The notes below the pieces were generated by a model that saw nothing but the letters and a program-made list of their open reading frames with translations, had not been told where the DNA came from and ran no database searches. DNA of 64,000 bases. It comes from a bacterium (GTDB lineage: Bacteria > Desulfobacterota > Binatia > DP-6). Position 1 is the first letter of the stretch. Each line of letters opens with the position of its first letter. The translations under genes and the position numbers were made by a program. Location of the stretch: NCBI GenBank assembly GCA_026129405.1, contig JAHCID010000009.1, positions 62,001 through 126,000 on the forward strand, given 5' to 3'. Below are positions 44,296 to 61,081 of this stretch, piece by piece.

Positions 44296-45087
44296 TCAAC
44301 CGGCCGGCGCGTCCAGCCGCGGCACCACGATCCGGCGCCCGCTCGGACCGTGCGTCTCGACCAGGACCGGAGTCGCGAACACGGCCTCGAGCACGTCCGG
44401 CGCCAGCACCGCCGCCGGCGGCCCGGCACACACGACGCGCCCGTCGGCGAGCAGCACGAGATGGTCGCAGAAGGCGGCCGCCAGGTTGAGGTCGTGCAGG
44501 ACGGTGAGCGCCGCCATCCCGTCGCGCCGGCAGCGGGCGCGCACCACCGCGTGCAGCAGGCTCTGGTGGCGCAGGTCCAGGTGCGTGGTCGGCTCGTCGA
44601 GGAGCAGGACCTGCGGCTCCTGCGCGAGCGCCCGCGCCAGGAAGACGCGCTGGCGCTCGCCGCCCGAGAGCGCGTCGATGGGCCGCACCTCGAGGGCGTC
44701 TATCTCCAGCGCGGCGAGCGCCGCCCGCGCCACGGCGAGGTCGTGCGGGCCGGGGAACCCGAACGGGCCGAGGTACGGCGTACGCCCCATCAGCACCGCC
44801 TCGAGCACCGTGAACGGGAACTCGAGCCGCGGGTCCTGCGGCACCAGCGCGAGCACCCGCGCCACCTCGCGGCGCGGCCACGCGGCGAGCGGGCGGTCGC
44901 CGAGCACGACCGTCCCCGCCGACGGGCGATCGAGGCCGGCGAGCAGGCGGACCAACGTCGACTTGCCGGCCCCGTTCGGACCGACGAGGCCGACGACGGC
45001 GCCCGGCTCGAGGGCCAGCGACACGCCGCGCAGCACCGGGCGCGCCTGGTGCGCGAAGTGGACCGCGTCGGCCGTGAGCCGGGTCAC
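44296..45087 (-). CDS. ABC transporter ATP-binding protein, BtuD/FepC type
   Basis: The 263-residue ATPase has Walker A VGPNGAGKST, Q-loop LVPQDPRLE, signature LSGGERQR, Walker B VLLLDEPTTHLD and the H-loop VLHDLNLA. It belongs to the vitamin B12/iron-siderophore group. The GTG overlaps the permease stop by four bases, giving binding protein, permease, ATPase in order, all on the minus strand. Two flanking cobalamin-riboswitch operons make corrinoid import the best guess, though heme or siderophore import cannot be excluded by sequence alone. Confidence 0.9.
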   Translation of the reverse strand: MTRLTADAVHFAHQARPVLRGVSLALEPGAVVGLVGPNGAGKSTLVRLLAGLDRPSAGTVVLGDRPLAAWPRREVARVLALVPQDPRLEFPFTVLEAVLMGRTPYLGPFGFPGPHDLAVARAALAALEIDALEVRPIDALSGGERQRVFLARALAQEPQVLLLDEPTTHLDLRHQSLLHAVVRARCRRDGMAALTVLHDLNLAAAFCDHLVLLADGRVVCAGPPAAVLAPDVLEAVFATPVLVETHGPSGRRIVVPRLDAPAG

Positions 45088-46103
45088 GCGCTCCCCCGGC
45101 GCAAGGTGCGGCGCAGGAGGTAGAGGAAGAACGGGCCGCCGAGGAAGGCCGTCACGACGCCCACCGGCAGCTCGTTCGCGCCGAGCGCGGTGCGCGCCGC
45201 CGTATCCGCCCACACGAGCAGGACGGCGCCGCCGAGGAACGACGCCGGCAGCAGCAGGCGCAGGTCCGGCCCGAACAGCAGGCGCAGGAGATGCGGCACG
45301 ATGAGGCCGACGAAGTTGATCATGCCGCTCACCGAGACGGCGGCGGCGACGAGCAGCGACGCCGCCACGAACACCGTGCGCCGCACCCGCTCGACGTCGA
45401 CGCCGAGCGCGTGCGCGCCCTCCTCGCCCGCCGCCATGAGGTTCAGGTGCTGCGCGTGCCGGCCGAGCGCGACGACGCCGGCCAGCGCGTAGGCGGCCAC
45501 CAGACCGACCAGCACGTAGCTCTGCGCCGACAGCGACCCCATGATCCAGAACAGCACGCCCTGTGCCTGCGTGTAGCTCGCGAGCGCGTTGACGAGCATG
45601 ATCGCCGCGGCCCCGAGCGCGTTGCACACGACGCCCACGAGCAGCAGCGTCGTCGGCGCCGCACGGCCGTCGCGCCGCGCCAGCACGAAGACGAGCGCCA
45701 TCGTGCCGAGCGCCCCCGCGAACGCCGCGAGCGGCACGACGGGCGACACCGGATCGGCCCCGGTCACCAGCACCAGGGCGCCGGCGACCGCCGCCCCGGC
45801 CGAGATGCCGAGCAGGTGCGGATCGGCGAGCGGGTTGCCGAGCAGGCCCTGGAGCGCCGCGCCGGCGCAGGCCAGCGCCCCGCCCACGACGGCACCGAGC
45901 AGCACGCGCGGCAGGCGGGTGCGAAACAGGATCAGATGGTCGGGCGTCCCCGCGCCGTCGGGTCCGAGCGCGCGTGCGAGGCTCGCCGACGTCGGCCCGA
46001 TCAGCGTCGCCGCCACGATCGACGCGACCACGAGCAGCGCCAGGACGGCGAGCACGCCGAGCAGGCGCCGCGGCGTCAGATGGGCGCCACGACCGCGCCT
46101 CAC
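45084..46103 (-). CDS. ABC transporter permease, BtuC/FecCD family
   Basis: The 339-residue permease has about ten helices and the family blocks RLPRVLLGAVVGGALACAGAALQGLLGNPLADPHLLGISAGA (around residues 57-98), then VSVSGMINFVGLIVPHLLRLLFGPD and GGPFFLYLLRR. FecCD permeases import B12, heme or iron chelates. The GTG start overlaps the binding-protein stop. It should pair as a dimer with the ATPase encoded next. Confidence 0.92.
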   Translation of the reverse strand: MRRGRGAHLTPRRLLGVLAVLALLVVASIVAATLIGPTSASLARALGPDGAGTPDHLILFRTRLPRVLLGAVVGGALACAGAALQGLLGNPLADPHLLGISAGAAVAGALVLVTGADPVSPVVPLAAFAGALGTMALVFVLARRDGRAAPTTLLLVGVVCNALGAAAIMLVNALASYTQAQGVLFWIMGSLSAQSYVLVGLVAAYALAGVVALGRHAQHLNLMAAGEEGAHALGVDVERVRRTVFVAASLLVAAAVSVSGMINFVGLIVPHLLRLLFGPDLRLLLPASFLGGAVLLVWADTAARTALGANELPVGVVTAFLGGPFFLYLLRRTLRRGSA

Positions 46104-46990
46104 CCCGGGGCTCCGGGATGGATCGCCGTCGCCAGCGCCGCGGCCGCCTCGCCCACGCGCGGCCCGGCGCGGAACAGCGCGTCCGGGGCGATCCGTACGA
46201 CGCGGCCGTTCGCCACCGCGGGTACGGTCGTGAGCGGTGCGAACAGGTCGCGGCCGCCCTCCTCCGTGCCCATCGCGGCGTCGAGGATGACGTCCGGCGC
46301 ACGCGCGACGACCACCTCCGTAGCGATCTGCGGAAACGCCTGGCCGACGTCGGCCGCGACGTTGGTCGCGCCGGCGACACGCAGCAGCTCGTCCTGGAGC
46401 GTCCCGCCGCCCGCGACGATGAGCGGCCGATGCCCCACGACGAGCAGTACGCCCTGCATGGGCAGGCCGGCGACGCGCCGGCGGACGGCGTCGAGCTCGC
46501 CGTCGATGCGCGCGACCAGGGCCTCGCCGCGCGCCGGCTCGCCGATCGCGGCGGCGATGGCGCGGATCGCCGCCCGCAGGTCGGCGAGCGTGCGGTCGCC
46601 GACGACCAGCACCGGGATGCCGGCGCGCTCGATGGCGCGCACCGCCTCGCGGTTCCCGGGCGACGGCACGGCGATGACGAGCCCGGGCGCGACCGCGATC
46701 ACCGCCTCGACGCTCGGCGACAGATAGCCGCCCACACGCGGCAGGCGTTCGACCGCCGGCGGAAAGTTGCAGTGTCCGCAGACGCCCACGAGACGCGCGC
46801 CGGCGTCGAGCCCGAAGAGGATCTCGGTCACCGACGGCGCGAGCGAGACGATGCGCGCACCGTCGCCCCGCGCCGCCGGCGGCGGCGCACACGCGGCCAA
46901 CACGACCGCGAACGCCGCCGCGCCGAGGAGCCGGAGCACGGCCCGTGCATCCGCGCCGGCGGCTCCCCTGTCAACGATTGCAGTGCACAT
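46100..46990 (-). CDS. Periplasmic cobalamin-type ABC binding protein, BtuF-like lipoprotein
   Basis: The protein has 296 residues from the ATG at 46990, or 279 from a GTG at 46939; both give a signal with lipobox VLAAC, so it should be membrane-tethered. The mature domain is BtuF/FhuD-like: ARIVSLAPSVTEILFGLDAGARLVGV, LPRVGGYLSPSVEAVIAVAPGLVIA and a long connecting helix, without the metal-binding His of zinc proteins. It is the first gene of the importer operon. No riboswitch precedes it, unlike the two operons downstream, but its start faces the outer-membrane barrel gene across about 200 bases. Confidence 0.85.
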   Translation of the reverse strand: MCTAIVDRGAAGADARAVLRLLGAAAFAVVLAACAPPPAARGDGARIVSLAPSVTEILFGLDAGARLVGVCGHCNFPPAVERLPRVGGYLSPSVEAVIAVAPGLVIAVPSPGNREAVRAIERAGIPVLVVGDRTLADLRAAIRAIAAAIGEPARGEALVARIDGELDAVRRRVAGLPMQGVLLVVGHRPLIVAGGGTLQDELLRVAGATNVAADVGQAFPQIATEVVVARAPDVILDAAMGTEEGGRDLFAPLTTVPAVANGRVVRIAPDALFRAGPRVGEAAAALATAIHPGAPG

Positions 46991-47187
46991 TGCCTGGGCA
47001 GGTGCATGCCCGATGCGAGGCAGGCGACGACATCCGGCTGCGAGCGGCGGCGGCAAACGATCGTTCACCAGGGGACTTGGCGGTCGCCTGCGCGACGGAG
47101 CGTCGCGGCATGCGGGTTGCTGTGCCCCGGGACGACGGCCGACGCGCCCTCGATGGTGCCGGTCGCGAAATGGAGGGAGGGACACTC
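46991..47187. promoter_or_regulatory. Divergent control region between the btuF-like and barrel genes
   Basis: This spacer holds a perfect 10-base palindrome AACGATCGTT (47056-47065) and a tight hairpin CGCGACG-GAG-CGTCGCG (47091-47107). A GGAGGGAGG ribosome-binding site precedes the barrel ATG. No cobalamin-riboswitch core (no CTGCCCCGCA-like box) is present on either strand. The palindrome is a candidate site for a shared regulator. Confidence 0.4.
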
Positions 47188-48072
47188 ATGGATCATCGAC
47201 GTCGATCGTCGAGGGCGGGGCGCTTGGCCGGCCTCGTCGCAGCAGCCGGCCTGCTGTTCGCAGCTCCGGCGGTCCACGCCGGACCGAACAGCGGGAAGAT
47301 CGAGTTCAGCGTGGGCATGGACTTCACCACGGCCTACTTCTTCCGCGGCATCCTCCAGGAGCGCAACGGCTTCATCTGGCAGCCCTACGGTGAGGTGAAC
47401 ATCAACCTCTTCGCGGACGAAGACGAGAACGCGATCTTCACGGGCTTCACGCCCTTCATCGGCACCTGGAACTCGGTCCACTCGAAGGCCACCGGCGCCG
47501 TCAGCGGCCCGACCAACTGGTACGAGTCCGACGTCTACCTCGGCGCCAAGTTCACCTTCTTCAACAAGCTCGAGGTGAAGCCCTTCTACATCGCCTACAC
47601 CTATCCGAACGGCGCCTATTCCACGGTGCAGGAGTTCGACATGTCCTTCAGCCTCGACGACAGCGAGTGGCTGGGCATGTGGGCGATGTCGCCGAGCTTC
47701 CTCTGGGCGCACGAGCTCGAGGGCACCGCCCTCGGCGACAAGCGCGGCGACTACATGGAGTTCAACGCCGGCCCGTCGTTCACCATCCTCGAGAGCGAGG
47801 ACTATCCGGTGTCGCTGGCGGTGCCGCTCCAGCTCGGCATCGGCATCGACAACTACTACGAGGGCCCGTTCAGCAACTCGAACGAGACCTTCGGCTTCTT
47901 CCGGGCGGGCGCGATCTTCAGCGTCCCGCTCGCCTTCATGGGCGAGGACTACGGCTCGTGGTCGGCCAGCGCCGGCGCCTACGTCTACACCTTCGGCAAC
48001 GTGAACAAGTTCTACAACGACAACGACGACCCCTGGGTCGTCGGCACCTGGTCGATCAACATGACCTACTGA
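47188..48072 (+). CDS. Outer-membrane beta-barrel protein (TorF/Gcw_chp-like porin)
   Basis: The 294-residue precursor has a signal peptide (RLAGLVAAAGLLFAAPAVHA). The mature protein alternates polar and aromatic residues in strands such as KIEFSVGMDFTTAYFFRG, GEVNINLFADE, WYESDVYLGAKFTFF and ASAGAYVYTFGN, and ends in an aromatic strand (VVGTWSINMTY) as barrels do. The opening FTTAYFFRGILQ resembles the TIGR02001/TorF porin group. There is no plug domain or TonB box, so it is not a BtuB-type receptor. Its place between the importer and the riboswitch operons makes a role in corrinoid entry possible. Confidence 0.72.
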   Translation: MDHRRRSSRAGRLAGLVAAAGLLFAAPAVHAGPNSGKIEFSVGMDFTTAYFFRGILQERNGFIWQPYGEVNINLFADEDENAIFTGFTPFIGTWNSVHSKATGAVSGPTNWYESDVYLGAKFTFFNKLEVKPFYIAYTYPNGAYSTVQEFDMSFSLDDSEWLGMWAMSPSFLWAHELEGTALGDKRGDYMEFNAGPSFTILESEDYPVSLAVPLQLGIGIDNYYEGPFSNSNETFGFFRAGAIFSVPLAFMGEDYGSWSASAGAYVYTFGNVNKFYNDNDDPWVVGTWSINMTY

Positions 48073-48100
48073 GGGCGCGGCTGCGCGCCCGCGAAGCTGC

Positions 48101-48144
48101 GGCCCCGATCGGCGGAGTGCTGGGGAGCCCCGCCGATCGGGGCC
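48101..48144. terminator. Bidirectional terminator hairpin between convergent genes
   Basis: A perfect 15-base stem (48101-48115 with 48130-48144, GGCCCCGATCGGCGG and its complement) closes a 14-base loop. On the plus strand a GTGGTGTTT tract follows. It separates the barrel gene from the convergent first riboswitch operon and can serve both. Confidence 0.75.
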
Positions 48145-48203
48145 GTGGTGTTTGCGGCCCGAGCGACGGGCGCCGGGCGCCCGCCGCTCGTTCCGTTCCG
48201 ACC

Positions 48204-49625
48204 TCACTTGCAGCGCACGTTCGGCCCGGCGAGCGCACAGCTCGCGAACGCGCTCGTACCGCACTGCCCCGCCGCATCGAGGCTGAAGGTCGCCCGCAGG
48301 GGCAGATCGCCGGCACCGGCGACGAATGCGCCCTTCTTGCCGGTGACCTTCACCTTCACGCGGCCCGCCGGTACGGGGAGCTTCTTCACGGCCACCTTCG
48401 TGATGCCTGCGACCCCGGCCTTGCTCGAGAACGTCCAGGCCGTACCGCCGCCCTTCACCTTCCAGCCGGTCTTCGTCCCGGCGTCGTAGGCACCGCCCGG
48501 GAGCGCGACGTCGGCGACGGTGCCGGCGGCGCCGGTGACCGCGAGGCGCACGCCGTTCATGAGCGGATCGAGCGCCGGGGACGTGGGCACGATCATCTCG
48601 CCCGTCAGCTTGAGGCCGTCGTCGCCGGTCGGCAGAGCGACCTTCGTGAGCGTGAGCTTCGCCCGCGTGAGCGCCACGCCGCCGATGCACGGCTGATCGG
48701 CGTCGCAGGCCCCGTCGGCGTCCGCGTCGCGACAGATGGTGGCGATCTCGCTCACGCCGACGTCGAGGACCAGCGTCTCGTTGCGGGCGGGGTCGTGGAA
48801 CAGCTCCGACGAGAAGACGAAGCCGCTGGCCCGCTCGCTCTGGGCGCCTCCCGGCGCCACCGCCAGGATGGTGCTGCTGGAGAAGTCCGGCTTGAAGCCG
48901 CCGCTGACGAGCAGGTTGCCGTCGTTGTCGAGATCGATGGCGTAGCAGCCGGAGAGCCCGCCGACGACGGGCCCGACCGGCGTGCCGGCGAGCGTGTACG
49001 CCGCCACGGAGCCGGTGAACGTCGCATCGACGTTGCCGACCAGGAGATTGCCGCCGGCGAGGGCCAGGCCCGCGGTGTAGTCGAATCCGGTGACGAGGTT
49101 CGACGCCACGCCGCCGGTGATCTTCACGACCCGGCCGGCGCCGGGGCCCGTCCCGTCGCTCACGATGAGATCGCTCCCCGAGACCACGACGTCCTGCGCG
49201 AAGGGGATCGAGCCGCTGGGCACGACCTCGGCTCCCGCCGCGGGCAGCGCGGTCGCCCGCGTGAGCGCGTCCGGAACGGCGTAGACGGTGTCGCCGGTGG
49301 TCGCCCCCATGAGGTGGCCGCCGTTGTCGGTGACGTAGAGCGTGCCGCCCGCGAAGGCGAAGCCGCCGAGCGAGTTGAAGCCGGTGGCGATCGTGGTGGC
49401 GACGCCGCCGTCGAGCCGGATCACCTGCTGGAGCCCGACCCCGAAGGCGCCCTGGCCCACGAAGACCGCGTCGCCGGCACGGACGACGCCGCCCTGCACG
49501 AAGTCCGGCGTCGGGATGGTGCCGGCAACCCAGCCGGGCGCCGTCGTGATGGCGGCCCCGACCGGGGCCACGGCGGCCAGCGCGAGCGCGCCGGCCAGAG
49601 TCGCATGACGTGTCCAGGAAACCAT
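48204..49625 (-). CDS. Secreted beta-propeller protein with CK-terminal domain, operon 1 gene C
   Basis: The 473-residue precursor has a signal peptide (HATLAGALALAAVAPVGAA). Residues 30-310 form NHL-like propeller blades (GFAFAGGTLYVTDNGGHL, VVVSGSDLIVSDGTGPGAGRVVKI, LALAGGNLLVGNV). A calcium-loop-like CRDADADGACDADQPC follows, then a C-terminal domain of about 150 residues (LTLTKVALPTGDDGLKLTG to the final RCK). Gene C2 (54436-55878) is a paralogue over its whole length. It is last in an operon under a cobalamin riboswitch. A role in binding corrinoid outside the cell, like the BtuG propeller of Bacteroides, is inference. Confidence 0.75.
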   Translation of the reverse strand: MVSWTRHATLAGALALAAVAPVGAAITTAPGWVAGTIPTPDFVQGGVVRAGDAVFVGQGAFGVGLQQVIRLDGGVATTIATGFNSLGGFAFAGGTLYVTDNGGHLMGATTGDTVYAVPDALTRATALPAAGAEVVPSGSIPFAQDVVVSGSDLIVSDGTGPGAGRVVKITGGVASNLVTGFDYTAGLALAGGNLLVGNVDATFTGSVAAYTLAGTPVGPVVGGLSGCYAIDLDNDGNLLVSGGFKPDFSSSTILAVAPGGAQSERASGFVFSSELFHDPARNETLVLDVGVSEIATICRDADADGACDADQPCIGGVALTRAKLTLTKVALPTGDDGLKLTGEMIVPTSPALDPLMNGVRLAVTGAAGTVADVALPGGAYDAGTKTGWKVKGGGTAWTFSSKAGVAGITKVAVKKLPVPAGRVKVKVTGKKGAFVAGAGDLPLRATFSLDAAGQCGTSAFASCALAGPNVRCK

Positions 49626-49648
49626 GCTGCGGATGTCCTTTCGTCGCC

Positions 49649-51160
49649 TCAGCGGAGCGTCACCGTGAAGCGGTCCAGGTCGACGGACTTCCGCCGTCGC
49701 TTCGTGCCGGGGCCCTCGGCACGAAGCACGACGGTGGTCCGTCGACGCGCGAGCGGGATGCGCAGCCGGCGTGTCGATCCCGGGATCGACGCGCCCAGCT
49801 CCGCGGTGAGGTCGCGCTTGCCGGCGCGCACCGTGACCGACCCCGCCCGGACCTCGGGCGCGATCACCACGATGAGCTCGGCATGCGTGCTGCCCGCCGG
49901 CAGCGCGATCGCGGCGCCGGTCGGGCTGACGTAGGTGAGCAGGTGGTCGGACGCGCGCTTGCCGCCGCGGCCGCGGAACGCGCCCGTGACCAGCGGCCCG
50001 CACGCGGCGTCGGCCGGGCACGGATCGCAGGCGTCGCCGACGCCGTCGCCGTCGGTGTCGAGCTGCTCGGGGTCGGCGACCGTGACGCAGAGGTCGCAGG
50101 CGTCGCCGACGCCGTCGCCGTCGGCGTCGGCCTGCGCGGGATCCGGCACCAGCGGACAGACGTCGGCGGCGTCGGGCACGCCGTCACCGTCGCTGTCGGG
50201 CGGTCCGCTCGGACCGTCCTCGCAGGCGTCGCCGACTCCGTCGCCGTCGGCGTCGGCCTGGTCGGGATTCGGCGTCCCCGGGCAGTTGTCGCACGGATCG
50301 CCGACGCCGTCGCCGTCGCGGTCGCGGCGGTCGGGGCTCGCGAGCCCCGGGCAGAGGTCGCAGGCGTCGCCGACGCCGTCGCCGTCCGCGTCGGCCTGGG
50401 CGGGATCGGCGACCAGCGGACAGCCGTCGGCGACGTCGGGGATGCCGTCGCCGTCGCCGTCGGCCGAGCCGGCGGTCTCCTTCGAGTTGAGGCCGGCGAT
50501 GGCGTCGAGGTCGAAGCCCGCGAGCTGCTGGAGCCCGAACACGTATGGGCCGGCGTCGATGCGCACGAAGCGGATCGCGGCGAGCCCGACGTCGGCGAGA
50601 TCGAAGACGTCGCCGCCGGAGCCCGGCGGCGGCACGAAGGCGTCGACGTCGACGCCGACCAGCGACGCGATCGGCGCCGTCGAGGGCACGAGCGGCGACG
50701 GCGCGCCGGGATCGGCCGCGTTCGCGAACACCGGATAGACGCCGGCGCAGCCGGGATAGAACGGCGGCTGGTCGAGCGCGCAGGCGAACGTCGCCCAGGT
50801 GACGCCGTCGGCGCTCACCGACACGGTGCCCGGCTCGGCGAACGGATCGAGCGTGGTCGCCCCGAACGTGAGGAAGGCGTTCTCGAAGACGGTGAAGTCG
50901 GGGCCGGGACCGTTCACGACCACGTTGTCGGTGAAGGCGACCACGACCTGGCCGCCGAGCCCGAGCGACAGGGTGTCGAGCGAGCCCGCGAACGGCCCCG
51001 CGCCGCGCGGCGGCCCGAGCACCACGCCCGGCAGGTCGGCGACCCGGGCGCCGCCGCCGGGGCCGATGGTCCAGCTGACGACGTCGTCGAGGAAGGGATC
51101 GGCCCGCCCCGCCGCCGGCACGAGCAGCAGCAGCACGACGAGGAGCGCGCGCACCGTCAC
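49649..51160 (-). CDS. Surface protein with thrombospondin type 3 repeats, operon 1 gene B
   Basis: The 503-residue precursor has a signal to about residue 20. Residues 21-225 form a beta-sandwich-like domain with [49 protein letters not shown] and [20 protein letters not shown], a pattern I know from surface proteins near B12-uptake genes in other phyla. Residues 233-380 carry seven DxDGDGxxD calcium loops of the thrombospondin type 3 kind. The last 110 residues are basic ([14 protein letters not shown] to RFTVTLR). Its paralogue B2 has exactly the same length. The GTG overlaps the gene A stop, so A and B are co-translated under the riboswitch. Confidence 0.82.
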
Positions 51161-52738
51161 GGCAGGAATCCGATCGAGAACGGCGGCAGCCCGAGCCGCA
51201 GCGGGCGGCGCTGCACCGGGCGGTCGGTGGACGGATCGAAGAGGCGCAGGCCGGGATCGGGCATGCCCTGGTCGGCGAGCCACACGAGGCCGTCGGGGCC
51301 GACGGCGACGTCGGGCAGGAAGCCCATGCGCGCGTAGAGGTCGCGCGGCGGCGTCGCGCCGGTGGGATCGAAGGCGACGAGGTGGTTGCGCAGCGTGCCG
51401 TCCTGGACCACGGCGTAGCCCTTCGTGGGCGCGAGCAGCACGAAGTCGGTGACGTTGCCGCCGAGCGCGACCTCGTCGGCGAAGAACCGGCCCTCCGCAC
51501 GCAGCGCCACCGGGTCGACGCGCTCGAGGCCGCCGTCGCCGACCCGATAGATGTCGCCGGGCGTGCCGAGCACCAGCATGCCGGTCCCCGGCTCGCGCAC
51601 GATGCCGCTCGCGTCGCCGAAGGCGTTGGCGCCGAAGAGGGGGATGTCGCCGACGATGGCGTCGGTGGCGACGTCGATCACGACGAGACGGCTCGGCCCG
51701 GTGGGCGCGAACCCGCGCCGGCGGTCGAGCCGCTGCACGCTGACGAAGAGCCGCCCGTCGACCAGCGCCATCTGGCTCATCTCCGGCAGCCCGTCGCCGT
51801 CGGCGAAGCCGCGGAGATCGATGGTGCCGCGCCGGAAACGCTCGCAGCCGCGCACCGACGGATCGACGATCCACAGCTCGGCGCGGTCGTAGCGCGTGAC
51901 GTAGGCCTTGTCGGGCGCCACGACGACGATGTCGTGCGGGTTCGAGCCGGGCCCGGTCGAGCACTGGAAGCGGGTGCGCAGGCCTTTGTCGGGCTCGAGA
52001 CGCTGCACGTTGTCGCCGAGGAAGCGGTTCAGGACGAAGACCATGCCGCCCGACGTCCGCACCACGGCGTCGGAGTGCACCCGCGCGGGCGGGTGGCCGA
52101 CGCGGCGGGGGCTCGCGAGCCCCACCGTCGCGAGCCCCCCGGTCTCGAAGTCCGTGGTGACGACGAGCGCGCGCCCCGCCCCGCCGCCGCTGCGCCGGCA
52201 GGTGACGCGCAGCCGATCGGTGTCGCGGCGACCGCCGGCGTCGCGCACCGTCGCACGCAGCGTCGCACGGCGCCGGCACGCGCCCGACGGACGACCTCGG
52301 CCGGCGCGCTGCACATCGTCGGCCTGTCACCGGATAGGCGAGCGCGCCGGTGCTGGTCGCGACGGGCGCGCCGGCGGCGGCGCCGCCGATCACCGGCGGC
52401 TCGATCGCCGCCGCTCCGCACGCACCCACGTTCAGGCAGTACGCGACGGCGATCCGGCAGGTGCCGTCGGCCGTCCCGTCACGGTCGCAGGCGGGGTCAC
52501 CGTCGCGGCAGACGACGGCGAGGTTGCCGAGCGCCGCGGGCGCGGCGTCGAGCCGCCACGCGCCGAGGCACTCCGCGGCCGCGGCGGCGTGGACCGCGGC
52601 GGCCGACGGCAGCAGGCCGGCGCACAGAAGAACCCCGAGGGTCATGCGGATGGGTCGCGTCGTCGTGATCTCCTCGCCGCCGCGGAGACCGGTGCGCGCA
52701 CCCCGCCGCCATGCGCCATGGACGGCCGTGCCCGACAC
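51157..52738 (-). pseudogene. Secreted YncE-like beta-propeller, operon 1 gene A, with two apparent frameshifts
   Basis: The GTG at 52738 follows a GGAAGGAG ribosome-binding site at the end of the riboswitch. The first part (signal, then AECLGAWRL and [19 protein letters not shown]) runs to about 52325. A short piece in another frame reads CSAPAEVV to about 52285, and a third frame continues with [20 protein letters not shown], the propeller ([40 protein letters not shown]) and [12 protein letters not shown]. Restoring one base at each break gives 527 residues against 526 for the intact paralogue A2, so single-base losses explain it. Whether these are errors or real mutations is open. It is likely a corrinoid-binding or surface partner protein. 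Confidence 0.75.
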
Positions 52739-52913
52739 CCAGCTCCTTCCCCGCGGAAGGCGTACTCTGCTGGCTCCAGTCGGGCAGGTCTTCTGGCTCG
52801 GGGATCGTCCTCCCCCGGTCCCTTCCCGCCTGACGGCAGTGGTCGCGACCGGGTTCGTCCCCCCTCACAGCTGCGGGGCAGCGAGGGATTCGCACCCTCT
52901 TCCCCAACCCGCC
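52739..52913 (-). promoter_or_regulatory. Cobalamin riboswitch with start-codon-sequestering hairpin, operon 1
   Basis: Read on the minus strand, the aptamer spans about 52913-52783. P1 pairs GGCGGGT with ACCTGCC. The conserved core is present: GCGAATCCC, CTGCCCCGCAGCTGTGAG, CCACTGCC, GGGAAGG and CCGAGCCAGAAGACCTGCC. The expression platform (52760-52743) is CCTTCC-GCGG-GGAAGGAG, a hairpin that hides the ribosome-binding site of the GTG at 52738. Bound cobalamin should therefore block translation of gene A and its coupled partners. Confidence 0.93.
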
Positions 52914-52927
52914 TGGGTCGAGCGGGG

Positions 52928-52956
52928 ACATAAGCCGGCCGGCGGAGACGGGTCAA
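52928..52956 (-). promoter_or_regulatory. Promoter of the operon 1 riboswitch
   Basis: On the minus strand TTGACC (complement of 52951-52956) and TTATGT (complement of 52928-52933) are 17 bases apart. Transcription would begin just before the aptamer. Confidence 0.65.
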
Positions 52957-53040
52957 GCCGCCAGGCCGTCGCGTCACGAAGACGCGCGTCACCTCCGCGC
53001 GTGGACGGCGGTCGTCATGGCGGCCTTCTCTTCGCACCGG

Positions 53041-53073
53041 GGTAGTGACTCAGTTCCAAGCTGAGTCACTACC
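53041..53073 (-). terminator. Terminator-like hairpin after operon 2
   Basis: A perfect 13-base stem (53041-53053 with 53061-53073, GGTAGTGACTCAG and its complement) has a 7-base loop. It is much less GC-rich than its surroundings and lies 11 bases past the stop of gene D, so it likely ends operon 2 before the promoter of operon 1. Confidence 0.75.
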
Positions 53074-53083
53074 CGCACGGACG

Positions 53084-54364
53084 TCACTTGCAGACCACCT
53101 TGCCTTTGCTCGGCTGCGCCATGCAGGCGCCCGGCGCGAAGGCGACCTCGCCGCAGCGCGCGTCCACGCGCAGCTGCGCCCGCAGCGGCAACGCGGGCGA
53201 CGCCAGCGCGACGCGTTTGCCGGTGACGGTGAGCTTCAGCTGCCCGGGCGTCTTCGCGACCAGCTTCACGACCCCGAGCCCGCCCGCCGCGCCCTTCCAG
53301 GACGAGGTGCCGCCCTTCACCTTCCAGCCGCTCTTCGTCGCCTTGTCCCAGGCGCCGCCCGGGATCGTCACGTCGAGCAGCGTCGTCGCCGCGTCGGCGA
53401 GGACGACCCGCACTCCGGTCGCGACCGGATCCGGCGCCGCGCCGGGAAACGGCAGGAACGTGCCCGACCAGGTGACCACGGCGTCGCCGGCCGGCATGTG
53501 GAGCTTCGTCAGCGTCAGCTTCGACGCGACGATCGTGCCGGTGCATCCGCCGCCGCCCTCGCAGGCGTCCCCCACGCCGTCGCCGTCGCTGTCGCGCTGC
53601 TGCGGATCGTAGACGTCCGGACAGCCGTCGGCGACGTCGGGATAGCCGTCACCGTCGGCGTCGGGCGCCCCGTTGCGCTCGACCGAGTGCACCGCCGCCA
53701 TCGCATCGAGATCGAAGCCCGACAGGCCGAACAGACCCACCACCAGCGCCGGCGACGCGGTGACGCGGACGTAGCGCGCCGCTGCCAGACCGACGTCGGC
53801 GAGATCGAACGCGTCGCCGCCGGCCCCGGCGGGGGGCACGAACATGTCGACCGGGATGCCGACCAGATCCGCGATCGGCGTGGTCGAGGGCACGAGCGGC
53901 GACGGGGCGTTCGGATCGTCCGCGTTCGCGAACACGGGATACACGCCGGCGCAGCCGACGTAGTAGGGGCCCGCGCCGATCGCGCAGGGGATCGCATGCC
54001 AGTCGTTGCCGTCGCCGCTGATCTCGATCAGGGCCGGCTCCGCGAAGGGCGGGTTGGTGATGGCGCCGATGACGAGGAACGGGTTCTCGAACACGAGGAG
54101 ATCGGGACCGGGGCCGTTGACGATGACGTTGTCGTCGAACGCGACCGTGATCGTGCCGCCGAGCCCGAGCGACACGACGTCGAGCGATCCCTGGAAGGCG
54201 CCACCGCCGCGCGGCGGGCCGAGCACGATGCCGGGTAGATCGGCCGCGCGTCCCCCGCCGCCGACGCCGGCAGTGTAGTCGACCACCCGATCGACGAAGG
54301 GATCGGCGCCGGCAAGCGTCGCCAGCCCCAGTGCGGCGATCGCCGCCCACGTGATGCGTCCCAT
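53084..54364 (-). CDS. Secreted mosaic protein, operon 2 gene D (B-type front, C-type tail)
   Basis: The 426-residue precursor has a signal to about residue 20. Residues 21-228 repeat the B-type domain ([59 protein letters not shown]). Only two calcium loops follow (DADGDGYPD, DSDGDGVGD). The remaining 165 residues match the C-type terminal domain (SKLTLTKLHMPAGD, IPGGAWDKATKSGWKVKGG, final VVCK). It is thus a fusion of parts from its neighbours B2 and C2. It has no counterpart in operon 1 and is the last gene of operon 2. Confidence 0.78.
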   Translation of the reverse strand: MGRITWAAIAALGLATLAGADPFVDRVVDYTAGVGGGGRAADLPGIVLGPPRGGGAFQGSLDVVSLGLGGTITVAFDDNVIVNGPGPDLLVFENPFLVIGAITNPPFAEPALIEISGDGNDWHAIPCAIGAGPYYVGCAGVYPVFANADDPNAPSPLVPSTTPIADLVGIPVDMFVPPAGAGGDAFDLADVGLAAARYVRVTASPALVVGLFGLSGFDLDAMAAVHSVERNGAPDADGDGYPDVADGCPDVYDPQQRDSDGDGVGDACEGGGGCTGTIVASKLTLTKLHMPAGDAVVTWSGTFLPFPGAAPDPVATGVRVVLADAATTLLDVTIPGGAWDKATKSGWKVKGGTSSWKGAAGGLGVVKLVAKTPGQLKLTVTGKRVALASPALPLRAQLRVDARCGEVAFAPGACMAQPSKGKVVCK

Positions 54365-54435
54365 GACGTCCTCCTCCGCCCGCGGGCGGGCGGAACGCCG
54401 CAGCGCCCCGCCCGCCCGACTCCGGGGCGATCAGC

Positions 54436-55878
54436 TCACTTGCACTTGAGCGTGGTACCGCTGCCGTTGAAGGCGCAGATCGGCGCCGGACCGCTGAAGT
54501 CCGCGGTGCCGCACTGCCCGTCGGGCGCGAGCACGAAGGTCACGACGAGCGGCAGCCCCGCCGGCGTCACCGGGAAGGAGCCCTTCTTGCCCGTGACCTT
54601 GAGCTTCAGGAGCCCGGGGGTCTTCGGCACGGCCTTCACCGACACCTTGGTGACGCCCGCGACGCCCGTCTTGCTGGTGAACGTGAACGACGTGCCGGTG
54701 CCGTTCGCCTTCCAGCCGGCCTTCGCGGCCGGGTCGAAGGCGCCGCCCGGGATCGCGACGTCCGCCACGGTGCCGAGGGCGTCGCCGAGGACGATGTGCA
54801 CGCCGTTCGCCACCGGATCGATCGCCGGAATCGTCGGGATCACCATCTCGCCGCCGAACTTGAGGCCGTCGTCGCCCGGCGGCGTCGCGAGCTTCGTGAT
54901 CGTCGCCTTCGCCTTGGTGATGATCGCCCCGCCGTTGCAGAGCGCGTCGGCGTCGCAGACGTCGTCGCCGTCGACGTCGCGGCAGATCGCCGCGACGCTG
55001 GTGGCGGCGTAGTCGAGCACCAGGGTCTCGTCACGGGCCGCGTCGTGGAACAGCTCCGTCGTGAAGACGAAGCCCCAGGCGCGCTGCGACTGGGCGCCGC
55101 CCGGCGCGATCGCGAGCACGTTCGAGCTCGAGAAGTCGGGCAGGAAGCCGCCGGTGACGAGGACGTTGCCGTCGTTGTCCAGCTCCTGCGCGTACTCGCC
55201 GGACAGCCCGGACGCGATCGCGGTCACGAACGTGCCGCCGAGGGTGTACTCGGCGAGCGAGCCGACGAAGAAGCCGTCGACGTCCCCGACGAGGAGCCGC
55301 GTCCCGTCGACCGTGAGGCCCGCGGCGTAGCCGAGCCCGGTGATGATCGGCGTGACGACGCCGCCCGACACGCGCACGACGCGCCCCGCGCCCGGTCCGG
55401 CCGCGTCGCTGACGAGCAGGTCGGCGCCGTCGACGACGACGTCCTGCGCGAACGGGATGCTCCCGGCCGGCGCCACCTCGGCCCCGAGGGCGGCCACCGC
55501 AGTGGCGCGGGTCAGCGCGTCGGGAATGGCGAAGGCGGTGTCGCCCGTGAGCGCCCCCGGCACGTTGCCGCCGTTGTCGACGACGAAGAGCGTGCCGTTC
55601 GGGGCCAACGCGAAGCCGCCGAGCGAGTTGAAGCCCGTGGCGATCGTGGTCGCCACGCCGTTCTCGAGGCGGATGATCTGCTGGAGCCCGGCGCCGAAGG
55701 CGCCCTGCCCGACCAGGACCGCGTCGCCGGCGCGCACGACGCCGCCCTGCACGGCGCCCGGCGTGGGGATCGCGTAGTAGTGCCAGCCGGGCGCGGTCGT
55801 GATCTGGGCGCCCGCGGGCGCCGCGAGGACGGCCGCGAGCGCGAGGGCTCCGGCGAGCGAGACGGATGGTTTCGACAT
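54436..55878 (-). CDS. Secreted beta-propeller protein with CK-terminal domain, operon 2 gene C
   Basis: The 480-residue precursor has a signal peptide (VSLAGALALAAVLAAPAGA). Blades include GFALAPNGTLFVVDNGGN, VVVDGADLLVSDAAGPGAGRV and LTVDGTRLLVGDVDGFFVGS, then LDNDGNVLVTGGFLPDFSSS. A CRDVDGDDVCDADALC loop leads into the C-terminal domain (AKATITKLATPPGDDGLKFGG to LKCK). It is similar along its length to C1 in operon 1. A GC-rich palindrome (54376-54389) sits between it and gene D and could tune mRNA ends. Confidence 0.75.
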   Translation of the reverse strand: MSKPSVSLAGALALAAVLAAPAGAQITTAPGWHYYAIPTPGAVQGGVVRAGDAVLVGQGAFGAGLQQIIRLENGVATTIATGFNSLGGFALAPNGTLFVVDNGGNVPGALTGDTAFAIPDALTRATAVAALGAEVAPAGSIPFAQDVVVDGADLLVSDAAGPGAGRVVRVSGGVVTPIITGLGYAAGLTVDGTRLLVGDVDGFFVGSLAEYTLGGTFVTAIASGLSGEYAQELDNDGNVLVTGGFLPDFSSSNVLAIAPGGAQSQRAWGFVFTTELFHDAARDETLVLDYAATSVAAICRDVDGDDVCDADALCNGGAIITKAKATITKLATPPGDDGLKFGGEMVIPTIPAIDPVANGVHIVLGDALGTVADVAIPGGAFDPAAKAGWKANGTGTSFTFTSKTGVAGVTKVSVKAVPKTPGLLKLKVTGKKGSFPVTPAGLPLVVTFVLAPDGQCGTADFSGPAPICAFNGSGTTLKCK

Positions 55879-55900
55879 GGAAGTATTGCCTCCGGTCGCT

Positions 55901-57412
55901 TCAGCGGCGCTTCTTCACCGTGAAGCGGTCTCGATCGACGGCGCGCCGGCGACCCTTCGTTCCGGGTCCCTCGGCACGGAGGACGACGACGCTGCGTCGA
56001 CGGGAGATGGGAATGCGCAGCGTCCGTGTCGATCCGGGGATCAACGACGGCAGCTGCGCGGTGAGATCACGCTTACCGAGACGCACGGTCACGGATCCGG
56101 GGACCACGTCCGGGGACACCACCACCACCAGCTCGGCCTGCGTGGCGTCGGCCGCGACGATCATGAGCGCCGCGGCGGGGGATACGTAGGTGAGGAGATC
56201 GTCGGTCGCGCGCTTGCCGCCGCGGCCGCGGAACGTGCCCGCGACGAGCGGGCCGCACTCGGCGTCGGCCGGGCACGGGTCGCAGGCGTCGCCGAAGCCG
56301 TCGCCGTCGGTGTCCGCCTGGAGCGGATCGGCGTCGGCGGGACACACGTCGCAGGCGTCGCCGACGCCGTCCCCGTCGCGGTCGTCCTGCGCGGGATCGG
56401 GCACGAGGGGACAGACGTCGTCGGCATCCGCCACGCCGTCGCCGTCGGTGTCGGGCGGACCATTCGGTCCCGCCTCGCACGCGTCCCCGACGCCGTCCCC
56501 GTCGGCGTCGGCCTGATCGGGATTCGGGGTCGCGGGACAGTTGTCGCAGGGGTCGCCGACGCCGTCGCCGTCGCGGTCGCGCCGATCCGCGCTCGCGAGG
56601 CCCGGACACAGATCGCACGCGTCGCCCACGCCGTCGCCGTCGGCGTCCTCCTGGCCGTCCGGGATCTGCGGACACGCGTCGGCGGCGTCGGCGATGCCGT
56701 CGCCGTCGCCGTCCGGCAGCCCGCCGACCTCCACCGAGTGGACGCCGGCCACGGCGTCGAGGTCGAAGCCGGCCTTGCCCTCGAGGCCGAAGGCCGCGTT
56801 GCCCGCGTCGATGCGCACGAAGCGGATGGCGGCGAGGCCGACGTCGGCGAGATCGAAGCCGTCGCCGCCCGAGCCGGCCGGCGGGACGAAGTCGTCGATC
56901 GGGATGCCGACCAGCGCCGCCAGCGGCGTCGTCGACGGCACCAGCGGCGACGGCGCGCCGGGGTCGTCGGCGTTGGCGAACACGGGGTACACGCCGGCGC
57001 AGCCCGCGTGGTACGGCGCCGCGTCGCGAGCGCACGGGAACGTTCGCCAGGTCGTGCCGTCGGCGCTGACCGACACCGTGGCCGGCTCGGCGAACGGCGG
57101 GTTCGTGGTCGCGCCGATCACGAGGAACGGGTTCTCGAACACGGTGAAGTCGACGCCCGGCCCGTCGACGACGACGTTGTCGTCGAAGCGGACGACGATC
57201 TGCCCACCGAGCCCGAGCGACACGACGTCGAGCCCGCCCGCGAACGCCCCACCGCCGCGCGGCGGGCCCAGCACGACGCCGGGCAGCGCGCCGGCGTTCC
57301 AGCCGCCGGCGGTCCCGGGCGTGAAGGAGACGACGGCGTCGAGGAACGGATCGGCGGCCGCGACCCGCGCGGCCAGGACGACCGCGGCGGCGACGAAGCG
57401 GAGTGCCTTCAT
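55901..57412 (-). CDS. Surface protein with thrombospondin type 3 repeats, operon 2 gene B
   Basis: The 503-residue precursor (ATG at 57412, overlapping the gene A2 stop) has a signal to about residue 20 (RFVAAAVVLAARVAAA). The B domain contains [52 protein letters not shown] and [20 protein letters not shown]. Seven DxDGDG loops follow, some spaced by CPxxP linkers ([19 protein letters not shown]). The basic C-terminal domain (GRGGKRATDDLLTYVSP to RFTVKKRR) matches that of B1. Calcium would stiffen the repeat rod, projecting the B domain from the cell. Confidence 0.82.
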   Translation of the reverse strand: MKALRFVAAAVVLAARVAAADPFLDAVVSFTPGTAGGWNAGALPGVVLGPPRGGGAFAGGLDVVSLGLGGQIVVRFDDNVVVDGPGVDFTVFENPFLVIGATTNPPFAEPATVSVSADGTTWRTFPCARDAAPYHAGCAGVYPVFANADDPGAPSPLVPSTTPLAALVGIPIDDFVPPAGSGGDGFDLADVGLAAIRFVRIDAGNAAFGLEGKAGFDLDAVAGVHSVEVGGLPDGDGDGIADAADACPQIPDGQEDADGDGVGDACDLCPGLASADRRDRDGDGVGDPCDNCPATPNPDQADADGDGVGDACEAGPNGPPDTDGDGVADADDVCPLVPDPAQDDRDGDGVGDACDVCPADADPLQADTDGDGFGDACDPCPADAECGPLVAGTFRGRGGKRATDDLLTYVSPAAALMIVAADATQAELVVVVSPDVVPGSVTVRLGKRDLTAQLPSLIPGSTRTLRIPISRRRSVVVLRAEGPGTKGRRRAVDRDRFTVKKRR

Positions 57413-58989
57413 GGCGCGAATCCAATCGAGAACGGCGGCAGGCCGAGGCGCAGCGGGCGGCGGCGCAACGGCTCGTCGGTGGCGGGATCGAAGAAGCGGA
57501 TACCCGGATCGGGCAGGCCCTGATCGGCGAGCCACAGGAGCCCGTCGGGACCGACGACGATGTCGGGCAGGTAGGCCTGGCGGTTGTAGACGTCGACGGC
57601 GGGCGCGGCGCCCGACGGATCGAAGCGCACCAGGTGGTTCTTGAGATTGCCGTCCTGGACGACGGCGTAGCCCTGCGTCGGCGAGAGCAGGACGAAGTCG
57701 AGGATGTTGCCGCCGACGGTCTTCTCGTCGACGTAGAAGCGGCCCTCGGCCCGCAGCGCGTGCGGATCGACGCGCTCGAGGCCCCCGTCGCCGACGCCGT
57801 AGATGTCGCCGACCGAGCTGACCACGAGCCAGCCGGTGGCGGGATCGCGCGGGATGCCGGTGGCGTCGCCGAACGGGTTGGCGCCGAAGAGCGGGATCTC
57901 GCCGACCACCGCGTCGCTGGCGACGTCGATGACGATCATCCGTCCCGGCCCGGTGGCGCGGAAGCCGATCCGACGGTCGAGCCGCTGGATGGCGACGAAG
58001 AGGCGGCCGTCGACGACCGCCATCTGGCTCATCTCGGGCAGCCCGTCGCCGTCCGCGAACGGGCGCAGGTCGATCGTGCCGCGGCGGAAGCCGCGGCAGT
58101 CCGCCCCCACCGAGGGATCGACGATCCACAGCTCGGCGCGGTCGTAGCGCGTCACGTACGCCTTGTCGGGCGCGACCACGGCGATGTCGTGCGGGTTCGA
58201 GGCGGTGCCGGTCGAGCACTGGAAGCGCGTGCGCAGGCTGCCGGGCTCGAGCCGCTGCAGGTTGTCGCCGAGGAAGCGGTTCAGGACGAAGACGACGCCG
58301 TCCGCGACCCGCACGACGGCGTCGGAGTGGATCCGGGTCGCGGGCTTGCGTACGCGGTGCGCGGCGTTCGCACCGACCGTGGCGAGCACGCCGGTCTCGA
58401 AGTCGGTGGTGACCACGATCGCGCGGCCGCCGGCGAGCGATCCCCTGCAGACGACCTTCAGCCGGTCGACGTCGCGACGCCCGCTGGCGGCGTCGCGCAC
58501 CTGCGCGCGGATCGTCGCCTTGCGCTGCCGGTGCCCGCCGAGCGCGAGCGTGATCTCGGCCGCCTCGGGACAGACCCCGGGGCTCGCGATCGGCGCCACC
58601 AGCGCGCCGGCGGCGGCGGCGAGCGCCTCGGCGCCGGGCCCGCGGAACGTCGGCGCCTCGAGCTGCCCCGGCGCGCACGGCGCGAGATTGAGGCAGTACG
58701 ACACGGCGAGGCGACAGGTACCGTCGGCGACGCCGTCGGCGTCGCAGGCGGGATCGCCGTCGGTGCAGACGAGCCGCGCGTTGCCCGGCGTCGGAGCGGC
58801 GGCGGCGAGACGCCAGCCGCCGAGGCACTCCGCGCGCGCCGCCCATGCGTCGGGCGGGCTCGCGAGCGCGAGCAGGAGGAGGGCCAGGGCCTGTCGGGTC
58901 GGTGTCGTCGTCGTCTCCGCGAACGCGGAGACGGCCCGAGTGCACGCTGCGCTGCGACTCGCTACATGGTCGCCCGCTCTGCCTGACAC
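57409..58989 (-). CDS. Secreted YncE-like beta-propeller, operon 2 gene A
   Basis: The intact 526-residue member of the A pair. It starts at a GTG right after the riboswitch's GGAAGGAG site; no other in-frame start exists before the signal-peptide core (QALALLLLALASPPDAWA). Residues 54-110 hold a Cys-rich part with CTDGDPACDADGVADGTCR and SYCLNLAPC. Propeller blades follow: [75 protein letters not shown] and YLPDIVVGPDGLLWLADQG. YncE-like propellers resemble the corrinoid-binding BtuG proteins of Bacteroides, so cobalamin capture is a reasoned guess. Confidence 0.85.
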   Translation of the reverse strand: MSGRAGDHVASRSAACTRAVSAFAETTTTPTRQALALLLLALASPPDAWAARAECLGGWRLAAAAPTPGNARLVCTDGDPACDADGVADGTCRLAVSYCLNLAPCAPGQLEAPTFRGPGAEALAAAAGALVAPIASPGVCPEAAEITLALGGHRQRKATIRAQVRDAASGRRDVDRLKVVCRGSLAGGRAIVVTTDFETGVLATVGANAAHRVRKPATRIHSDAVVRVADGVVFVLNRFLGDNLQRLEPGSLRTRFQCSTGTASNPHDIAVVAPDKAYVTRYDRAELWIVDPSVGADCRGFRRGTIDLRPFADGDGLPEMSQMAVVDGRLFVAIQRLDRRIGFRATGPGRMIVIDVASDAVVGEIPLFGANPFGDATGIPRDPATGWLVVSSVGDIYGVGDGGLERVDPHALRAEGRFYVDEKTVGGNILDFVLLSPTQGYAVVQDGNLKNHLVRFDPSGAAPAVDVYNRQAYLPDIVVGPDGLLWLADQGLPDPGIRFFDPATDEPLRRRPLRLGLPPFSIGFAP

Positions 58990-59170
58990 CCAGCTCCTTC
59001 CCCGCGGAAGGTGTGTTGCTGCTGGCTCCAGGCAGATAGGTCTTCTGGCTCGGGGATCGCTCTCCCCCGGTCCCTTCCCACCTTTCGGCAGTGGTCGTGA
59101 CCGGGATCGTCCCCCCTCACAGCTGCGGGGCAGCGAGGGATTTGCACCCTCTTCCCTGACCTGTCTGGGG
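58990..59170 (-). promoter_or_regulatory. Cobalamin riboswitch with start-codon-sequestering hairpin, operon 2
   Basis: On the minus strand the aptamer runs about 59170-59031, with P1 between CAGACAGGTC and GACCTATCTG (one mismatch). The core GCAAATCCC, CTGCCCCGCAGCTGTGAG, CCACTGCC, GGGAAGG and CCGAGCCAGAAGACCT is present. The platform (59011-58994) has the same CCTTCC-GCGG-GGAAGGAG hairpin as operon 1, hiding the site for the GTG at 58989. Cobalamin should repress operon 2. Confidence 0.93.
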
Positions 59171-59179
59171 TCGGCGTGC

Positions 59180-59209
59180 GTCTTACGCTGCGCGCGCGCG
59201 TTCTGTCAA
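59180..59209 (-). promoter_or_regulatory. Promoter of the operon 2 riboswitch
   Basis: TTGACA (complement of 59204-59209) and TAAGAC (complement of 59180-59185) on the minus strand have an 18-base spacer. The -35 box overlaps the last codons of the methyltransferase gene, which runs the same way. Confidence 0.65.
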
Positions 59210-60626: not shown

Positions 60627-60656
60627 TTGACAGCGGATGGACCACCACAATATATC
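60627..60656 (+). promoter_or_regulatory. Promoter of the nrdAB riboswitch
   Basis: A consensus TTGACA (60627-60632) is followed after 17-18 bases by an AT-rich ATATATC stretch (60650-60656) serving as the -10 box. The riboswitch P1 begins about eight bases later, so transcription starts right at the aptamer. Confidence 0.7.
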
Positions 60657-60663
60657 GCGCCCC

Positions 60664-60849
60664 GTGCTGGTGCCGCTGGATCACTCCAGGGCCGAAAGAG
60701 GGAACCCGGTGGAAGTCCGGGACTGCCCCGCAGCGGTGAGCGAGAACGACATCCACCACAGGCACTGGTCGCACGACCGGGAAGCGGTGGACGGTAGGAC
60801 CATCCGGCGATAGCCGGACGAGCTCGCGAGTCCGAAGACCTGCCAGCAC
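60664..60849 (+). promoter_or_regulatory. Cobalamin riboswitch upstream of nrdAB
   Basis: P1 pairs GTGCTGG (60664-60670) with CCAGCAC (60843-60849) perfectly. Inside are GAGGGAACCCGGTGGAAGTCC, CTGCCCCGCAGCGGTGAG, GGCACTGGTC, CCGGGAAG and GCGAGTCCGAAGACCTGCC, the class I cobalamin aptamer elements in order (given in separate pieces). High B12 should switch off the class Ia ribonucleotide reductase below, as described for the Streptomyces nrdAB genes. Confidence 0.95.
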
Positions 60850-61081
60850 CCGTCGCGGGGAAAAATCCCGCGGCGGTCGATCAGCAAGCCACGAGGGGAA
60901 CGGGCGGCGATCCGATCACGCCCCGGTGGCGTGCGTCGTCTCGACCGATCCGTCTCCTCCGGCTGGAGGAAGGACGCAGGGTGGTCTCGCAGGCGACGAT
61001 CGAGCGCACACGACGACAGGGATGTCGTCCGCTCGGAGGTCGGGACGGCGCGCCCGGACGGCGCGCAGGACGGAGGGTGAC
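60850..61081 (+). promoter_or_regulatory. Long leader between riboswitch and nrdA
   Basis: The leader holds a 9-base stem with loop GAAAAAT (60851-60859 with 60867-60875) directly after the aptamer, a candidate expression platform without a U-run. A second small hairpin TCCTCC-GGCT-GGAGGA (60955-60970) precedes a 40-codon frame opened by a GTG at 60981 that ends inside nrdA at 61100. A GGAGG site five bases before the nrdA GTG closes the leader. Confidence 0.5.

Follow-up and report, generated by a model that had tools for sequence, protein, structure and literature searches.

A 64,000-nucleotide stretch from a bacterium of the Binatia lineage DP-6, probably a free-living member of the Binatota, raises the question of why two adjacent operons of exported proteins are each placed under a cobalamin riboswitch, next to a BtuFCD-type importer. 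This stretch, hereafter the window, covers positions 62001-126000 of contig JAHCID010000009.1 (C9:62001-126000; assembly GCA_026129405.1), in a genome of 5.63 Mb in 15 contigs. The operons are ordered C1-B1-A1 and C2-B2-A2-D, with one riboswitch ahead of each and btuFCD alongside. We conclude that they very probably form part of a corrinoid scavenging system, in which riboswitch-controlled capture at the cell surface is combined with a BtuB-type receptor and BtuFCD. A check of reading frames found A1, B1, C1, A2, B2, C2 and D as open frames at the expected positions, with C1 divided between two frames, and the features of the system in window coordinates are as follows.

52766..52931 (-): cobalamin riboswitch of operon 1, 91.6 bits, with the B12-box and core conserved
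51157..52645 (-): C1, predicted exported BtuG-like propeller protein, with the N-module and the propeller (51157-52314) in different frames; propeller 75% identical to that of C2
49649..51154 (-): B1, predicted exported protein with a BtuH-like domain (~50447-51103) and thrombospondin type 3 (TSP3) repeats (TSP_3, 2.5e-25)
48204..49613 (-): A1, predicted exported propeller (NHL-like repeats) with a C-terminal module, assigned by profile match and by the genome-wide repetition of the module
59038..59157 (-): cobalamin riboswitch of operon 2, 92.5 bits
57409..58989 (-): C2, predicted exported BtuG-like propeller (57409-58437) with an N-terminal module, assigned with AlphaFold2 (AF2) and Foldseek
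55901..57433 (-): B2, predicted exported protein with a BtuH-like domain (~56741-57370), 74% identical to that of B1, and TSP3 repeats (TSP_3, Pfam)
54436..55878 (-): A2, predicted exported propeller with a C-terminal module, 64% identical to A1
53084..54364 (-): D, a mosaic of a BtuH-like domain (53639-54307), a short TSP3 stretch and an A-type C-terminal module
46100..47185 (-): BtuF-type periplasmic corrinoid-binding protein (PF01497, Peripla_BP_2, 2e-30; NCBIfam BtuF 2e-29, below cut-off)
45084..46073 (-): BtuC-type permease (PF01032, FecCD, 1.7e-84)
44296..45084 (-): BtuD-type ATPase (NCBIfam corrinoid ABC transporter ATPase 1.8e-73, below cut-off), in the same operon in relatives

Pfam and NCBIfam gave only sub-threshold matches for C and A, with no informative Pfam family, and no useful family for B beyond TSP3 and sub-threshold matches; we therefore turn to predicted folds and sequence profiles for these proteins. 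The C propeller was modeled by AF2 from an alignment of 28 sequences (pLDDT 93.9), and the top 15 Foldseek matches of this model were all BtuG (E 5e-14 to 2e-12), followed by BamB at 3e-9. Structural re-alignment (VIA) with BtuG1 gave a Z of 30.9 and an rmsd of 2.8 over 305 residues. The sequence profile of C pointed in the same direction when compared with the PDB, matching nine BtuG sequences at E values from 1.6e-6 to 7e-5, with the next unrelated entry at 0.2. The N-domain of B1 was modeled with a pLDDT of 79.9, and its top three Foldseek matches were BtuG1 (8blw) and BtuH2 (7biz), the sole matches below E 0.001; on re-alignment (VIA) both fell in the H-domains with Z values of 13.3 (7biz) and 12.6 (8blw), compared with 8.8 for the next fold, and the two best profile matches in the PDB were again 8blw (0.0086) and 7biz (0.34). 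According to these models, C and not A is the BtuG-like protein, and B is BtuH-like, its N-domain matching the B12-binding domain of BtuH. The first-pass annotation had drawn the comparison with BtuG-type propellers without assigning roles to the individual proteins.

The same annotation had described the system as lacking a receptor. A TonB-dependent receptor gene is indeed absent from the 64-kb window, but one lies 45 kb beyond it on the same contig (C9:168787-170493), directly downstream of its own riboswitch (C9:170797-170916), and a receptor-less system is thereby ruled out. The encoded protein has a plug and a barrel (PF07715 and PF00593, both above cut-off) and a TonB-box-like stretch, LPEVVVTAP. 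Its profile found BtuB1 (8blw_A) as the best solved match in the PDB at 7.6e-49, and E. coli BtuB at 2e-40. The receptor, C and B thus map onto a single solved complex, 8blw (BtuB1 with BtuG1), the G and H parts being separate proteins here. In Bacteroides, BtuG1 is a BtuG propeller fused to a BtuH domain of ~250 residues (Abellon-Ruiz et al., PMC10404256). A frame that follows the receptor gene (L005 11902-13620) was identified by eye as a PhoD-like phosphatase.

We further searched the genome with the RF00174 covariance model and found four cobalamin riboswitches above the Rfam gathering cut-off of 31.5, all on this contig. Those of the two operons agree with what the first-pass annotation had proposed. 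The riboswitches of the two operons and of the receptor gene lie in DNA that is 85-89% identical, which indicates that these are duplicates of one element. CbiJ was not found in the genome in a search made for CbiJ only, without a survey of the full biosynthetic pathway; its absence, together with the presence of CobS and CobT, fits a corrinoid salvager.

To place the window among its relatives, we examined 38 genomes of the class, of which 20 carried C, 18 carried B and 16 carried A. All 18 B-positive genomes were also C-positive, and all A-positive genomes were B-positive; the association of C with B has a Fisher value of 6e-9, which, since the genomes are related, is not a strict probability. 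A cobalamin riboswitch was found no more than 6 kb away for 16 of 18 A genes, 18 of 20 B genes and 15 of 22 C genes, compared with ~0.1 expected for each; for A and B the exceptions, two genes each, sit near contig starts. In genomes without C, A and B were absent as well, and riboswitches mostly stood ahead of a more distant, classical BtuB. The test that the first-pass annotation had suggested, namely co-occurrence of the three families with B12 riboswitches and btuFCD, thus came out in its favor.

We also compared gene order at 38 distinct C loci, of which the whole genomes of the class supplied 20 and further GTDB genomes 18, after removal of redundancy. A receptor gene was found in the same locus at 32 of these, and 24 had a cobalamin riboswitch by the threshold that Rfam sets. 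In relatives, C often shares a single operon with B, A and BtuFCD. For example, L042 has the order riboswitch-C-B-A-BtuFCD with the receptor just upstream, L041 riboswitch-receptor-C-B, L048 riboswitch-receptor-C-BtuFCD, and L044, L045 and L062 riboswitch-A-B-receptor-C-...-BtuFCD. In other genomes of the window's own family (L118, L119, L121 and L122) the receptor likewise forms a separate riboswitch unit, and the layout of the window is therefore a family trait. By gene content, the relatives of the window genome are metagenome-assembled genomes labeled Deltaproteobacteria, UBP10 or Candidatus Binatota, which makes the host a probable member of the Binatota. Homologs of C were present in metagenome-assembled genomes labeled Deltaproteobacteria/Binatota, Latescibacterota, Gemmatimonadota and Krumholzibacteriota, and for some of these the record names point to soil or groundwater.

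Taken together, the predicted folds, the sequence profiles, the surroundings of the operons and the co-occurrence of the families lend strong support to the core idea of the first-pass annotation, riboswitch-controlled capture of corrinoids at the surface with a BtuG-type propeller. By analogy with Bacteroides, C and B would bind corrinoids. When B12 is scarce, the riboswitches would permit expression of the operons; B, through its BtuH-like domain, and probably A would catch corrinoids at the cell surface; and C would serve as a capture lid and hand-over protein on the BtuB-type receptor, as BtuG does on BtuB. Import through the receptor would be powered by TonB, BtuF and BtuCD would carry the corrinoid into the cytoplasm, and CobT and CobS, encoded just past the window, could rebuild the lower ligand. 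At the same time, a class I, B12-independent ribonucleotide reductase would be switched on together with the operons, sparing B12.

The reductase gene belongs to the same cobalamin-riboswitch regulon:

60651..60861 (+): third cobalamin riboswitch, 100.9 bits, ahead of the class I gene nrdA
60926..63505 (+): class I ribonucleotide reductase alpha subunit NrdA, the B12-independent isozyme (TIGR02506, 697 bits against a cut-off of 341), followed by nrdB just past the window

We had considered that the third riboswitch might drive a B12-dependent class II reductase, and the identity of these genes as class I NrdA and then NrdB rules this out. Directly past nrdAB, at C9:126511-132670 (L006 511-6670), are a second FecCD-type importer, two Peripla_BP_2 proteins, CobS and CobT. 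The BtuFCD importer itself was recognized correctly in the first-pass annotation, with BtuF and BtuC supported by Pfam and the ATPase by NCBIfam. The outer-membrane barrel gene that it placed next to btuF showed only a weak match, to a TorF-type porin of NCBIfam. This TorF-like gene (window 47253-48072) has a copy of 820 bases with 98.9% identity at L005 16778-17594, by the receptor operon 45 kb away, which from its sequence is a recent duplication.

Several observations weigh against a BtuB-BtuG-BtuH type of system. Identity on structural alignments is low, ~15-17% between C and BtuG and ~23% between B and BtuH. In a weak profile alignment, the cavity residue Trp194 of BtuG2 seems not to be kept in C, which has the motif LQRLDR there. 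The window copies of both C and B carry plain signal peptides without a lipobox, which leaves their anchoring at the surface unexplained; a lipobox was visible by eye in the C homologs of L044, L048, L049, L050, L052 and L085. In favor of such a system, the C propellers of relatives are acidic, with net charges from -14 to -41, although those of the window copies are just -5 and -2. A rival explanation is that the exported proteins are general surface or adhesion proteins tied to B12-limited physiology without touching corrinoids, and came under riboswitch control by chance. The genome has 21 occurrences of the C-terminal module of A (54436-54900 in A2), all in large frames that look exported, the N-module of C likewise recurs in many such frames, and TSP3 repeats are common among surface proteins. 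We consider this explanation very unlikely, however, because the shared modules are accessory parts and the C propeller itself has only two copies in the genome, the core domains of B and A are nearly always beside a cobalamin riboswitch, and C and B pick BtuG and BtuH before any other fold. The C-terminal module of A is a candidate sorting or anchoring module, and it may serve to anchor the window proteins.

The remaining points of this kind concern the receptor. Its top NCBIfam model is the myxochelin receptor MxcH, and the B12 model (TIGR01779 / NF007926) scored 9e-30, far below its cut-off. In addition, six receptor-C loci without a riboswitch lie 2-4 kb from a tRNA-Sec gene (L053, L055, L056, L057, L072 and L082), and the fold list of C contains, at a lower rank, another propeller, the lipoprotein XusB, which binds xenosiderophores. 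The receptor and C might accordingly import another chelate, such as a siderophore, haem or a complex of cobalt or another metal, with only A-B or BtuFCD handling corrinoids. Against this stand BtuB1, which among solved structures matches the receptor profile best, and the riboswitches at 24 of the 38 loci, many with btuFCD in line. Furthermore, four genomes of the same class with tRNA-Sec-linked receptor-C pairs carry a riboswitch-linked A elsewhere, together with B in three of them and split over contigs in the fourth, which suggests that A-B and receptor-C act as two halves of one regulon. We accordingly regard import of a different chelate as very improbable, and corrinoid scavenging as the preferred explanation. 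A link of the tRNA-Sec-adjacent loci to selenium was considered and set aside, since in L056 only a glycosyltransferase-like frame separates the receptor-C pair from tRNA-Sec and the arrangement is probably simple synteny.

The presence of two sets of genes raises a further question, whether operon 1 is a copy of operon 2 in decay, without a function of its own, which would be compatible with corrinoid capture. The first-pass annotation had listed two exported A/B/C sets, and C1 proved to be frameshifted near 52320, with the signal peptide and N-module in one frame and the propeller in another, which stems from a sequencing error or else marks the onset of decay. However, the frames of A1, B1 and the C1 propeller run uninterrupted from end to end, the riboswitch is intact, and misassembly of GC-rich DNA may account for a lone frameshift. 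Identity between the sets is 64% for A, 73% for B and 75% for C, with dN/dS values of ~0.40-0.48, indicating that both have been retained for a long time. Decay of operon 1 is thus conceivable, but we think it rather unlikely.

The closest known counterparts are the BtuB-BtuG systems of Bacteroides thetaiotaomicron (BtuB1G1 and BtuB2G2; PMC6143338, PMC10404256), which have in common with the present system a TonB-dependent receptor, a beta-propeller at the surface with the same fold, linkage of the genes, a riboswitch and btuFCD. The system described here differs in that it occurs in other phyla, the window copies of C have an additional N-module and no lipoprotein signature in their sequence, and the receptor and the propeller are in separate riboswitch operons in this genome. 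The C-terminal domain with which BtuH binds B12 (BtuH2, 7biz; the H-domain of BtuG1; PMC8941943) has its fold in common with B and D, as modeled for B1. In B, however, this domain directly follows the signal peptide and precedes the TSP3 repeats, without the N-terminal PKD/Ig-like domains of BtuH2 and without fusion to a propeller. Because C in the window lacks a lipobox, B lacks the Ig-like domains and the receptor scores below the NCBIfam BtuB cut-offs, we use the terms BtuG-like, BtuH-like and BtuB-like rather than assigning membership. BtuJ/DUF4465 proteins (PMC12751083, PMC13398666) are similarly exported, bind B12 and are encoded near TonB receptors in several phyla, but B and D matched no DUF4465 (BtuJ) Pfam model at E values up to 1. 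The classical, E. coli type BtuB-BtuFCD pathway also combines a receptor with an ABC importer; the relatives without C, which have a riboswitch and a more distant BtuB, carry no partners of the A, B and C type. A weak match below the cut-off (E as low as 2e-11) also links the BtuH-like domain of B1, D and B2 to the Leptospira lipoprotein family LIC_13355 of NCBIfam. The protein that gave this family its name has been examined for what it binds (PMC11891782), and a possible part of the family in corrinoid handling would merit a look.

The propeller type of A was putatively assigned from its profile, which matches designed propellers of the NHL type. D, which the first-pass annotation correctly read as a mosaic, joins a B-type N-domain to the C-terminal module of A. 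We tentatively raise the possibility, to which we give somewhat less than even chances, that A-B pairs are an autonomous corrinoid-catching unit, that the A propeller adds a third class, so far undescribed, to the surface proteins that handle corrinoids, and that B-C-receptor systems are old and span multiple phyla, with BtuG/BtuH of Bacteroides as one branch.

BtuG has been stated to be exclusive to Bacteroidetes, which was explained by competition in the gut (Wexler et al., PMC6143338), and the B12-binding domain of BtuH was reported to have no known structural homologs, with only three BtuH candidates, in Firmicutes, outside Bacteroidetes (PMC8941943). Apart from these three, we found no open paper on BtuG or BtuH outside Bacteroidetes, subscription papers and preprints being outside the search. 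The system had been called undescribed; this holds for the present phyla and for the A family, whereas the principle is known from BtuB-BtuG-BtuH of Bacteroides. Judged from sequence and predicted structure, it is a new variant of the BtuG/BtuH system in several other phyla. C, B and A, three protein families without a Pfam entry, are now annotated, and they supply testable B12-binding candidates for phyla with few cultured members. The presence in these phyla of BtuG- and BtuH-like proteins and a BtuB1-like receptor under riboswitches would alter the account of BtuG as exclusive to Bacteroidetes and shaped by gut competition. These results suggest that capture of B12 at the cell surface is distributed far more widely than has been assumed.

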